This document shows, piece by piece, positions 33,254 to 40,447 of a stretch of DNA of 64,000 bases. Position numbers and translations under genes: made by a program. Numbering within the stretch: position 1 is the stretch's first letter; the number at the start of each line of letters is the position of its first letter. Under the pieces are notes generated by a model. It saw only the letters and a list, made by a program, of their open reading frames with translations. It was not told where the DNA came from and did not search any database. Origin of the DNA: a bacterium (GTDB taxonomy: Bacteria > Elusimicrobiota > Elusimicrobia > UBA1565 > UBA9628); NCBI GenBank assembly GCA_021799485.1, contig JAJZAK010000005.1, positions 1 to 64,000 on the forward strand. The letters are read 5' to 3'.

Positions 33254-33757
33254 ATGGAAATAAAGAAAACGACGTTCCTCGTCGAAACCTATTATAAAGC
33301 CGAGCTTCACGACCCGAAAGGCGCCGAGATCCTCGCGCGTCTGAAATCGTTCGGCGCCCTGAGCGCCAAGGAAGTGCGTTCCGGCTCCCTCTACGAAATC
33401 GAAGGCGGCTTGGCCTCCGAGCAGATAGGGCGGATCGCCTCCGAATTCTTGGCGGACCCGGTCAGCCAGGGCTGGCGCCTGATCCCGGAGCACCCGGCGG
33501 GACAAGACGGGCTTCGGGACAATTGGCGCGTTGAGGTGTGGCCCAAGGACGGCTTTCGTGAGCGCGCCGGGGCCATCCTGACCGCGGCGCTGCGCCAGGC
33601 GGGACATCGGACGATCCTGGGCGTGCGGGTCGGGGATGTCTATCGAGTCGCCGCCAATTACCACAAAACTCAAGTTGAAAACGCCTTTCTTCGCGTCCTC
33701 GTCGCTCCACGGACGCATTCCCTCAAGGTGGTGGCCGAAGCGCCATGGCGTCTTTGA
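33254..33757 (+). CDS. Tandem PurS-like protein (two fused PurS folds)
   Basis: A 167-residue protein. Residues about 6-78 ('LHDPKGAEILARLKSFG', then 'FLADPVSQGWRLIPE') and about 92-165 ('RAGAILTAALRQAGH', 'ILGVRVGDVYRV') each fit the PurS pattern. This mirrors the N-terminal domain of large-type PurL, which is a PurS-dimer mimic, but here it is a separate gene. PurS is the structural subunit of FGAM synthase in step 4 of purine synthesis. It overlaps the PurL-like gene by 13 bases. A TACAAT at 33201-33206 may be its -10 box. Confidence 0.7.
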   Translation: MEIKKTTFLVETYYKAELHDPKGAEILARLKSFGALSAKEVRSGSLYEIEGGLASEQIGRIASEFLADPVSQGWRLIPEHPAGQDGLRDNWRVEVWPKDGFRERAGAILTAALRQAGHRTILGVRVGDVYRVAANYHKTQVENAFLRVLVAPRTHSLKVVAEAPWRL

Positions 33758-35994
33758 CTCGGCCGCGGGGCCTCGCCGTTCCCCGGGAAGCGCCCCGAAG
33801 CACGGCGGCGGCGCCGCCCTCCGAGGCGGACCGGGCTCAGTCGAGAACGGAGTCCTTGGCCGCCGAATGGGGGCGTTCGAGCCTTTCTTTGCGCGTCCGG
33901 TACCAGGAAGGCGGGCGTGTTCGCCAATTCAAGAATCTCTACGAGGAGACCGTCGGCCACGCCTCAAAGCGTCTGAAAGGGGCGTGTATCTGGCCCGCGA
34001 ACGGCATCGGCGCTTCCTATCTCGTTTTAGGAAGAGGCGATTGGGCCCTGGGCTCCGGATGCGGCATCGCCGGCGGAGCCTGGGATCTTGAAATGCTTGC
34101 CGAGGCGCAGCGGCGCCTGGCTTTCTCCTTGGGACAGGCGCTCTGTCTCAACCCCTCGGCGGCTCCGATCTTGACCGCCTCGTTTTTTTCGCTGCCCTCG
34201 CCCCAAGGAACCGCGGACTCCGCCGCCAAGATCTTGCATCCCAAATGCCTGGCTCCCCTATTCCTTAGGGAATTCGCCGAGTTTTCGAATCGTTTCGGAG
34301 TCCCGGCGCCCTCCGGGGGCGTTTGCTTCGACGGTTCCGCCGCTCCTGGCGGCGCGGCCGTCATCGTGGAAAGCCTCGCGATGATGCCCGCGAAAGCCGC
34401 CAAGCAGCGCGCGCGGGCCGGGGACGCCGTGGTCCTGATTTCCTCGCGCGGCGGGCCTGGCGGCGCGGCGTTCGACGAGGTGCAGCAGGCCATGGCGCAG
34501 GCTTTCCGCCGAGAGTTTTTCTATCGCGCCGTCGCGCTGGGGGCCGGAGGGTTGGCGGAGGCGGTCTTGGGATTGTCCGCGGGCCGGGGCGTCTCGATCT
34601 CCCTCGAGAAAGCCGCGGCGCCGGACCAGGCGGCGTCGCCGGAGGAATTGTGGCTGTCCAAGCAGGACGGCCTGTTTCTTCTCGCGGCCTCCCGCGGCGC
34701 TTGCCGCGAAATCGAGGGGCTGTTTAAGGAAAGAGGACTCGACGCGCGCGAGATCGGAGCCTTCACGGACACGGGGCGCGTCGACGTTTCATGGAACGAG
34801 GTCGGCTTTGTCCGCCTCGATGAAAAGGAAGCCCTGGCGCCCCGCCGGGCCGATCCCGTGAAAGCCGTATGGATGGGGGCCAAGACGGCGAAACGCTCCC
34901 GTTCCGTCGGCGGGCTTTCGGCAAGCGCCCTCCTGCGCGCCCTCATCGCCGATCTCGGCGTCGCGAGCCGGGAGTGGCTCGTGCGCCAAATGGACGTGGA
35001 GTCTCAAGGCCACACCGTCATCAAGCCTCTGCAGGGACTTCGCCACGACGGCCCGGGAGATGCTTGCGTCTTGTGGCCTCACGGCCTGACCGGCGATTCC
35101 GCGGATCACAGGGCTTTCGCCTTCGGCTGCGGCCTCTCCCAACGCATGCTCGCGCTCGATCCCGCTCTCGCGGCGGCCTTCGCCTGCGACGAGGCGCTCA
35201 GAAACGTCGTCTGCGTCGGAGGCGACGCGGCCAGGGCCGGCTTTTGGGCGCGCGCGGCATGGCCCGAATGGAGGGAGGGAGAAGAGCTGGGCGCGGTCGC
35301 GCGCTGGCTGCAGGGTCTCGGAACGGCGGTCGCGGGTTATGGAGTGCCCGTCGTGGCCCATCAAAGCCGGTTTGGAGGACGAGCCTCTTTTTTCACGGTC
35401 TCGGCGGCGGCGCCCTTGGCGGACATGCGCAAGGCCGTGACGCTCGACATCAAAGGACCGGGCAACCCGGTCTATCTCGTGGGATTGACGGGGGAGGAGC
35501 TCGCGGGCTCGCTCTATGCGGCGCTATGGGAACTGCCGGGAGACGGCTTCCCGAAGATCGCCCCGCGTCAGGCGATGGCGGCTTTCAAGGCCGTCGCGCG
35601 CGCCATCTCCTCGGGCCTCGTGCTGTCGGCGCACGATCTCGCGGACGGCGGGCTCGCGGTCGCCGCGGCGCAGATGGGATTTTCGGGGGAGTTCGGGCTG
35701 CATCTCGACCTGGATCTCCTGCCGCGCCACTCGGGAGCCATCGACGACTTGAAGCTCCTCGTCGCCGAGACGCCGAGCCGGATCCTTCTCGAGGTGCGGC
35801 CCGAGAAGGAGAGGGACGTCGCCCGGATTCTGCGCGGGTTGCCGGCCCGCCGCATCGGGGAGACGATCGCCAATCCTATCCTGAAGATCAAGGGCTTGGA
35901 CGGCTCGGTGCTTCTTGAGGAATCCCTTTCCCAGTTGAAGGCTCTCTGGCAGGCGGCCCTGCCGGAGGCTCTCGGCATTCCCGCAAGGTCATGA
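33745..35994 (+). CDS. PurL-like protein with degenerate catalytic motifs
   Basis: A 749-residue protein that keeps the overall FGAM synthase layout. Examples are 'SNRFGVPAPSGGVCFDG' near residue 184, 'GGPGGAAFDEVQ' near 234, 'EELWLSKQDGLFLL' near 299, 'FACDEALRNVVCVGGDAAR' near 485 and 'LSAHDLADGGLAVAAAQMGF' near 628. However the N-terminal WSEHC and the K(I/V)E(S/T)HNHPS motifs are absent ('EWGRSS' and 'IWPANGIGASY' stand there), and the GKxS-N metal/ATP motif is 'VVAHQSRFGGRAS'. The frame is fully open. It overlaps both neighbours. Whether it is an active enzyme is doubtful. Confidence 0.7.
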   Translation: MASLTRPRGLAVPREAPRSTAAAPPSEADRAQSRTESLAAEWGRSSLSLRVRYQEGGRVRQFKNLYEETVGHASKRLKGACIWPANGIGASYLVLGRGDWALGSGCGIAGGAWDLEMLAEAQRRLAFSLGQALCLNPSAAPILTASFFSLPSPQGTADSAAKILHPKCLAPLFLREFAEFSNRFGVPAPSGGVCFDGSAAPGGAAVIVESLAMMPAKAAKQRARAGDAVVLISSRGGPGGAAFDEVQQAMAQAFRREFFYRAVALGAGGLAEAVLGLSAGRGVSISLEKAAAPDQAASPEELWLSKQDGLFLLAASRGACREIEGLFKERGLDAREIGAFTDTGRVDVSWNEVGFVRLDEKEALAPRRADPVKAVWMGAKTAKRSRSVGGLSASALLRALIADLGVASREWLVRQMDVESQGHTVIKPLQGLRHDGPGDACVLWPHGLTGDSADHRAFAFGCGLSQRMLALDPALAAAFACDEALRNVVCVGGDAARAGFWARAAWPEWREGEELGAVARWLQGLGTAVAGYGVPVVAHQSRFGGRASFFTVSAAAPLADMRKAVTLDIKGPGNPVYLVGLTGEELAGSLYAALWELPGDGFPKIAPRQAMAAFKAVARAISSGLVLSAHDLADGGLAVAAAQMGFSGEFGLHLDLDLLPRHSGAIDDLKLLVAETPSRILLEVRPEKERDVARILRGLPARRIGETIANPILKIKGLDGSVLLEESLSQLKALWQAALPEALGIPARS

Positions 35995-36770
35995 GAACCC
36001 CCAAGATCCTTCTCCTGACGGCGCCCGGGCTTTACGGCGCCCGGGACTACTGGCCGCTGCTGCGCCATTTGGGAGCTTCTCCCCAGTCCGTCGCGCTCGA
36101 CGATCTCCGCGCCGGCAAGGCGAAGCTGATGTCCTTCGCGGGGCTCGTGATCCCCGGGGGCTCGTCTTACGAGGACGTCGTGGGGGCGGGGCAGATTCTC
36201 GGGGGACTGATGCGCTTCTGGGTCGAGGAATTGCGCCGCTTCATCGCGTACGGACGCGCCGTGCTCGCCGTGGGAAACGGCTTCCAGGCCCTGGTCAAAT
36301 GCGGAATCCTTCCGGCCTTTTCCTCCGCGGCGCCGACGGCCGGTTTCGCGCCGAACGATTCGGGGCGCTTCGAGGCGCGCTGGGTGCACGTTCGGCTTAA
36401 TACCCAGAGCCACAGCCCCTTCTTCGAGGGGCTCCCGGAGATGATGGAGCTCCCCGTCTTTCACCGCGAGGGAAAGATCATTTTGAAGTCTCCTAAGCAC
36501 CTGGAAGAGATCAAGAAGAACAAATCCATCGCGATGCAGTACGTTTCCGACGACGGCAAGCTCGCGGGCTATCCCGCCAACCCGAACGGCTCCATCTTCA
36601 ATCTTGCCGCGCTCTCCAATCCCCAGGGAAACTGCTTGGGCCTCATGCCCCATCCCGAGCGCTTCACGAGCGTGTACCACCATCCGAATTGGACCAGGCA
36701 GACTTTCCGCAAGCCCAACGTCGGCCTGGAGCTCGTTCGCAAAGTCGTCGAATACGCCGCAAGGGCGTAA
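35991..36770 (+). CDS. PurQ-like class I amidotransferase domain lacking the nucleophilic cysteine
   Basis: A 259-residue protein with the PurQ plan: 'LVIPGGSSYEDVVGAG' near residue 50, 'GNGFQALVKCGILP' near residue 97, and 'GLMPHPERF' near residue 217. In PurQ the nucleophile elbow reads G-[IV]-C-N-G. Here it is A-V-G-N-G, so the catalytic Cys is Gly (codon GGA near 36278). The partner His and Glu in 'HPER' remain. Without the Cys it should not hydrolyse glutamine. It overlaps the PurL-like gene by 4 bases. Confidence 0.78.
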   Translation: MRTPKILLLTAPGLYGARDYWPLLRHLGASPQSVALDDLRAGKAKLMSFAGLVIPGGSSYEDVVGAGQILGGLMRFWVEELRRFIAYGRAVLAVGNGFQALVKCGILPAFSSAAPTAGFAPNDSGRFEARWVHVRLNTQSHSPFFEGLPEMMELPVFHREGKIILKSPKHLEEIKKNKSIAMQYVSDDGKLAGYPANPNGSIFNLAALSNPQGNCLGLMPHPERFTSVYHHPNWTRQTFRKPNVGLELVRKVVEYAARA

Positions 36771-39109: not shown

Positions 39110-40447
39110 TCAGTACCGGTAATAATCCGGCTTGTAAGGCCCTTCCTGGGGAATGCCCAGGTATTCGGCCTGCTTGGATGTGAGCTTGGTCAAGTTCGCC
39201 CCGAGCCGGCCCAAATGCAGGCGAGCCACTTTCTCGTCGAGGGCCTTGGGGAGCATATAGACGTCCTTCTTGTATTTCCCGCCGCCCTTATTCTTCCACA
39301 GTTCGATCTGGGCTAGGACCTGATTCGTGAAGGAGGCGCTCATGACGAAGCTCGGATGCCCTTGTCCGCAGCCCAAGTTGACGAGACGGCCCTCCGCCAG
39401 CACGATCAGCACTTTGCCGTCGGGCCAAATGTAATGGTCCACCTGCGGCTTGATCGTCTCGCGCGTCAGCTTCTTGTCGCTATTAAGGGAGGCGATATCG
39501 ATTTCGATGTCGAAGTGCCCGATATTGCAGACGACGGCATGGCTCTTCATGCGGTCCATGTGGGACTTCGTGATCACGTCGCGGCAGCCGGTGGCCGTGA
39601 CGAAAAGGTCGCCGACGGGAGCCGCCTGGTCCATCGTCACGACTTGGAAGCCCTCCATCGCGGCCTGGAGCGCGGTGATGGGGTCGATCTCCGTGATGAG
39701 GACGCGCGCGCCGAGTCCCTTGAAGGCCTGGGCGCAGCCCTTGCCCACGTCGCCGTAGCCGCAGACGACGGCGGTCTTGCCCGCGATCATGATGTCGGTC
39801 GCGCGCTTGATCCCGTCCACGAGGGATTCGCGGCAGCCGTAGAGGTTGTCGAATTTGGATTTCGTGCAGGAGTCGTTCACGTTGATCGCGGGCGCGCCCA
39901 GCGTGCGCTGCTGCGCGCGCCGAGCCAGGCGGTGAACGCCGGTCGTCGTCTCCTCCGTGATCCCGCCCAGGCCGTCGAGGTATTCCGGGTATTTTTCATG
40001 AACCATCTCGGTGAGGTCTCCGCCGTCGTCGAGGATCATGTTGAGGGGCTTGCCGTCGGGCCAGCGGAGCGTCTGCTCGATCGCCCAATCGAATTCCTGG
40101 GTGCTCATGCCTTTCCAGGCGAAGACCGGGATGCCCCGCGCCGCGACGGCGGCGGCGGCGTGGTCCTGCGTCGAGAAGATGTTGCAGGAGCTCCATCGCA
40201 CCGTCGCGCCCAGCTCGGTCAGGGTCTCAATGAGGACGGCCGTCTCGATCGTCATGTGGAGGCAGCCCGCGATCCGGGCGCCGTCCAAGGGGCGCTTGCC
40301 GCGGAATTCCTCCCGAAGAGCCATGAGCCCCGGCATCTCGGACTCGGCCACCTCGATTTCCTTGCGGCCCCAGTCGGCGAGGCTCAAATCCTTGACTTTG
40401 AAATCACGCGCGGGGCCGGCCTTCGTCTTCGCGGCGGCTGTGGTCAT
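39110..40447 (-). CDS. ahcY: S-adenosylhomocysteine hydrolase
   Basis: A 445-residue enzyme that splits S-adenosylhomocysteine into adenosine and homocysteine, removing the product inhibitor of methyltransferases. It shows '[19 protein letters not shown]', the NAD-binding '[20 protein letters not shown]', and the C-terminal 'KPDYYRY' whose Lys and Tyr reach into the partner subunit's NAD site. AAGGAGG precedes the ATG. A TATAAT box lies 41-46 bases upstream. The length is normal for bacterial AhcY. Confidence 0.97.

Follow-up and report, generated by a model that had tools for sequence, protein, structure and literature searches.

Pseudoenzymes usually occur as single paralogues alongside an active copy. 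In carbamoyl-phosphate synthetase I, the catalytic Cys of the glutamine amidotransferase domain is naturally a Ser. The described system closest to the locus presented here is the PurSLQ FGAM synthase (EC 6.3.5.3), represented by structures from T. maritima (3d54), T. thermophilus (PurL, 3viu) and S. Typhimurium (StPurL, 1t3t). In StPurL the A1/B1 half forms the FGAM active site, and the A2/B2 half carries an auxiliary site, “of unknown function,” where Asp679 lies at the phosphate of bound ADP (PMC3815217). FGAM-synthase pseudoenzymes are known from gammaherpesviruses, in which the vFGARATs (ORF75 group, BNRF1 of EBV) play protein-protein roles and some recruit a cellular enzyme (PMC5691659; PMC5811070). 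Within the library searched, no paper on a bacterial FGAM-synthase pseudoenzyme was found, and searches on purine auxotrophy in Elusimicrobia and on mutants of StPurL His296 returned nothing to the point and nothing, respectively.

The operon described here lies in a stretch of 64,000 nucleotides (the window, G000:C20:1-64000) from a genome of 2.31 Mb in 61 contigs that is 90% complete (G000) and that its named relatives assign to Elusimicrobiota. It is best read, with a probability of roughly 0.6, as encoding a retained PurS-PurL-PurQ pseudoenzyme complex, which would no longer be an FGAM synthase and perhaps binds nucleotide or glutamine.

Operon layout and active sites

The purS and purL frames overlap by 13 bases and those of purL and purQ by 4 bases, all three being open on the same strand (Table 1). 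Pfam recognizes PurS in two stretches (4e-12), AIRS_C twice (3e-28) and GATase_5 (1e-56) in the products, and thus agrees with the open reading frames on what the sequence-only reading had described: intact overlapping genes, in the order PurS (tandem)-PurL-PurQ, for three homologues of FGAM synthase subunits in a single operon. The tandem form of PurS is common to relatives with a live enzyme. The flanking genes in the window encode what we take, from reading its sequence, to be an H+-pyrophosphatase (divergent) on one side and a histidine kinase (convergent) on the other. An S-adenosylhomocysteine hydrolase gene stands near the operon (window 39110-40447), and its adenosine product would matter to a purine auxotroph. 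A search of the window for RNA elements, including riboswitch control of purSLQ, found one tRNA only.

Table 1. Coordinates of the purSLQ-like operon in the window, and of the PurH2 gene in the same genome
Feature	Position	Strand	Remarks
purS-like gene, two tandem PurS domains	33254..33757	+	167 aa; ORF and Pfam; dN/dS 0.10-0.21
purL-like gene (putative pseudoenzyme)	33745..35994	+	749 aa; full PurL fold predicted, pLDDT 86, pTM 0.90
PurL A1+B1 half, ~residues 30-405	33832..34959	+	one-time FGAR/ATP active site, catalytic motifs all lost; limits approximate
PurL A2+B2 half, ~residues 406-749	34960..35991	+	auxiliary ADP-binding half, kept
PurL D439, E483, N487, D631	35059, 35191, 35203, 35635		equivalent to StPurL D679, E718, N722, D884
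purQ-like gene, class I glutamine amidotransferase fold	35991..36770	+	259 aa; His221 and Glu223 present; dN/dS 0.036-0.062
Gly95 codon GGA in place of the nucleophilic Cys codon	36273..36275	+	in purQ; codon scan and alignment
PurH2 gene of G000	L061:9323-10882 (G000:C50)	-	PurH2 observation also covers L179-L198

When PurL is aligned with its live relatives, the motifs WSEHC, DNAG, ETHNHP, HGATFSS, TDCGAGG, SESQER, DNFCW and GKDS have each been replaced or deleted, so that EHC, ETHNHP, TDxGAGG, GKDS and the other active-site signatures of a PurL are missing. The sequence-only reading had noted the loss of WSEHC, HNHPS and GKxS and had allowed for motifs shifted within the chain; the alignment, followed motif by motif, extends the loss to every FGAM-synthase active-site motif and finds none relocated. 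It also bears out the Gly that had been read in place of the PurQ nucleophile, a position occupied by Cys in 38/38 aligned live homologues, which leaves the Cys-His-Glu triad incomplete. All three proteins miss the NCBIfam equivalog cut-offs (PurL, 174.6 vs. 525.75 bits; PurQ, 138 vs. 177.8 and 181.5 vs. 298; PurS, 37.5 vs. 122 and 34.5 vs. 75). The same dead state is present in two further species of the window genus (G001, G002), which excludes a sequencing error.

AlphaFold2 models of PurL from the window and from a second dead lineage (G018) have pLDDT values of 86 and 87.5, with a pTM of 0.90. The window model is closest to PurL structures (TM 0.75 to 3viu and 0.76-0.80 to StPurL). The fold is predicted to persist without the catalytic residues in both lineages modelled. 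This predicted fold would suit a divergent yet active FGAM synthase, with its motifs relocated or with another nitrogen source. Such an enzyme is very improbable, given that the motifs occur nowhere else in the chain and that the de novo purine genes tested in G000 and its congeners are absent save a PurH paralogue.

Pathway loss and repeated inactivation

No second PurL or FGAM synthase was found in G000, whose sole other AIRS_C protein is presumably ThiL, as judged from its sequence. PurM, PurC and full-length PurF were not found in G000, G001, G002, G018 or G021; nearly all of the family's other tested genera have them. In G000, G001 and G021, a concatenated query of PurD, PurE, GuaA, GuaB, PurB, PurA, Hpt and Apt matched Hpt and Apt alone; in G018 it matched PurB and PurA besides these two, and in G002 (62% complete) none of the eight. 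Complete prototroph relatives carry the queried biosynthetic genes. On the genes searched (PurL, PurM, PurC, PurF, PurH and the eight of the query), and on MAGs that are 62-93% complete with one genome per species, the window genome looks like a purine auxotroph. G000, G001 and G021 seem to be without PurA, PurB, GuaA and GuaB, and would therefore depend on a supply of adenine as well as one of guanine.

The PurQ nucleophile motif was found by codon scan in 51/56 genomes of the order, with Cys in 46 of the 51. The codons of the remaining five are GGA, GGA and GGC in the window genus, TCC (Ser) in G018 and AGC (Ser) in G021, and these are the same five genomes that are without PurF, PurC and PurM. 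A single step leads from TGC to either TCC or AGC, but the latter two are two steps apart, meaning that the two changes to Ser are probably separate. The GlmS tree needs three changes, two of which are forced by strong branches. The AU test rejects a single clade of the five (p-AU 0.039) and does not reject a grouping of G018 with G021 (p 0.085), and the PurQ tree joins G021 to live G024 and sets G018 apart. The trees and codons thus imply at least two, and probably three, separate inactivations.

Two genomes, G058 and G061, have no PurQ motif, yet GuaA, GuaB, PurD and PurE are present; they look like assembly gaps and not counter-examples. G059 (75% complete) is likewise among the genomes of the order without the motif. 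In G031 (79% complete) PurF, PurC and PurM are missing, yet a 3.2-kb contig carries a canonical PurL; this genome was treated as incomplete. The PurL of G010 (G010:C9; L032) reads ETHNPPSALEP where its relatives have ETHNHPSA, with the rest of the pathway present, and is a possible variant or error. Among the extra non-Cys matches listed for the rest of the phylum up to G298, which also include G096, G153 and G238, the two inspected were rejected, G049 being a phosphoglucomutase-like protein and G179 a 12-residue chance frame.

In the live relatives the cluster order is guaB-guaA-purC-purS-purL-purQ-purF-purD-purE; these gene names are our assignments from reading the sequences, supported by the searches for pathway genes. 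In G021 the DUF362 flank of the live cluster adjoins purS, so that the neighbours have been deleted on both sides and purSLQ left behind. In G021 (L046:2766-6372) and G018 (L047:2320-5848), purSLQ is followed directly, on the same strand, by genes for the MoCo and FAD subunits of a xanthine-dehydrogenase-like molybdenum hydroxylase. A link to xanthine dehydrogenase was considered and rejected: live G024 has such a gene on the purSLQ contig, ~10 kb downstream, and in the window genome the copy lies on another contig, so that the adjacency seems to have arisen as a side effect when the purF-purD-purE stretch was deleted. In the window genus the operon is flanked by the H+-pyrophosphatase and histidine kinase genes, and the neighbourhood gives no consistent clue to function.

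Outside the order, PurQ occurs in 0/12 sampled genomes without PurF and PurC, which are 94-99% complete and comprise ten of family f12 plus G220 and G332; in those lineages the complex has been lost along with the pathway. The f12 members (G077, G079, G080, G098, G104, G141, G146, G148, G054, and G163) are small genomes. As far as sampled, retention of the complex after pathway loss is peculiar to the window family.

Constraint on the retained subunits

Pairwise dN/dS in the window genus is 0.15-0.16 for PurL (PurS and PurQ in Table 1), with 0.07-0.09 for the neighbouring HppA and 0.28 for the kinase; these are NG86 estimates, and as dS exceeds 1 for the pair of G000 and G002, the ratios of that pair are rough. 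Live pairs give 0.10-0.13 for PurQ and 0.16-0.19 for PurL. The dead genes are thus as low as or below the live pairs, and their constraint matches that of live genes. Purifying selection, which had been proposed in place of decay from the intact frames, is upheld by these values.

The case for decay, in which the genes would be useless leftovers of a recently lost pathway with stops yet to come, is that the pathway is gone and that PurL of G018 and G021 has a raised dN/dS against live relatives (0.27-0.41), a rate that is as expected for a more recent transition. Decay is nevertheless improbable: in three species of the window genus the frames are still open at PurL identities down to 74%, with dN/dS of 0.15 in PurL, 0.04-0.06 in PurQ and 0.015-0.024 in the C-terminal part of PurQ; neither PurQ nor PurL B2 is accelerated in G018 and G021; and the 12 sampled genomes outside the order without PurF and PurC have lost PurQ.

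Change in PurL is concentrated in one half of the chain. Alignment columns that never vary among 27 live PurLs from Elusimicrobiota are still matched by the window genus at 36/142 in A1+B1 vs. 47/83 in A2+B2 (p=4e-6), by G018 at 70/142 vs. 66/83 (p=6e-6) and by G021 at 115/142 vs. 77/83 (p=0.018). In G018 and G021 the distance to live relatives is inflated in A1 and B1, mildly so in A2, and not at all in B2 or PurQ. Asp679 of StPurL and the residues that we take from 1T3T to be its other ADP ligands (Glu718, Asn722, and Asp884) were placed by alignment, with correction for an 8-residue tag offset. All four auxiliary-site ligands are conserved in 5/5 dead PurLs, and the motifs HDGPGDACV and DEALRN are letter-perfect in all five. 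Retention of A2/B2 may stem partly from structural need rather than ADP binding.

Possible roles and comparison with known systems

The sequence-only reading had offered three explanations for the operon. A pseudoenzyme assembly is now well supported by the lost pathway, by the destruction of the active sites in two lineages at minimum, and probably in three, and by strong purifying selection. A regulatory role towards a true FGAM synthase elsewhere is contradicted, since G000 and its congeners have neither a second PurL nor any PurM, PurF, PurC, PurD or PurE. The third, an enzyme for another substrate, survives in weakened form, the catalytic residues having been lost differently in each lineage. 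A remodelled PurL A1/B1 acting without glutamine hydrolysis would agree with the catalytic versatility of PurM-superfamily folds and with the new A1-region sequence, which is conserved in the window genus (dN/dS ~0.10-0.13 over residues 60-150). It is unlikely because the A1/B1 metal and phosphate ligands are gone and the three dead lineages lost the site differently (deletions, point changes, and wholesale replacement), with no common new active site visible.

A second PurH-like protein (PurH2) stands beside the canonical PurH in most genomes of the family and is the sole PurH in all five auxotrophs. The IMP-cyclohydrolase motif RVKTLHP has been changed or deleted in PurH2, whose AICAR-transformylase KH reads KF in G000/G001 and KL in G004. 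PurH2 passes the PRK00881 cut-off and fails that of TIGR00355, and so may be active. In G010 a single open frame holds PurN and PurH, a possible PurN-PurH fusion (L057:5026-7287). By co-retention alone, PurH2 is one candidate partner of PurSLQ. The complex could accordingly serve as a stoichiometric subunit in some other assembly, such as one with PurH2, and sense no small ligand; within the window genus, PurQ is indeed better conserved than either PurS or PurL. This purely structural role is also doubtful, as purSLQ and PurH2 are without linkage and the exact conservation of HDGPGDACV and DEALRN suggests a ligand.

Under the preferred reading of a retained pseudoenzyme complex, the FGAM synthase of this family would have had a second, non-catalytic role that predated pathway loss and was then exposed by it. 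The likeliest mechanism would be a ligand-binding scaffold or regulator, in which the shape of the complex and its contact with a putative partner would be controlled by nucleotide bound to the auxiliary site of PurL and possibly by glutamine in a non-hydrolysing PurQ pocket. That a conserved non-catalytic function depends on PurQ and the auxiliary ADP site, and matters so much to the cell that the whole complex outlasted the pathway and both active sites, is put forward tentatively, at somewhat less than even odds. Retention is an argument that FGAM synthase is able to take on a second function, and directs attention to PurQ and the auxiliary ADP half of PurL as the place where that function sits. 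If this is true, the auxotrophs would be natural separation-of-function mutants revealing the purpose of the ADP site. Metabolic reconstructions that equate purL/purQ homology with purine prototrophy would err for these organisms.

The window complex shares subunits, gene order, fold and auxiliary ADP-site residues with the PurSLQ FGAM synthases, and by cluster position is the orthologue of the PurSLQ of its live relatives, but is without the synthetase active site, the glutaminase nucleophile and the rest of the tested pathway. Like the vFGARATs, it appears to be an FGAM-synthase homologue that has lost its activity. Those proteins are viral single chains directed against host defence, whereas the window complex consists of three bacterial subunits, and G000 has no second FGAM synthase for it to recruit. 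As in carbamoyl-phosphate synthetase I, a class I glutaminase domain has been retained after loss of the nucleophile; the synthetase of that enzyme is active on ammonia, whereas the synthetase half of the window complex seems to be dead too. Unlike the usual pseudoenzyme, a whole multi-subunit housekeeping enzyme would here have been kept dead, with no active copy, in two or more lineages within a single family.
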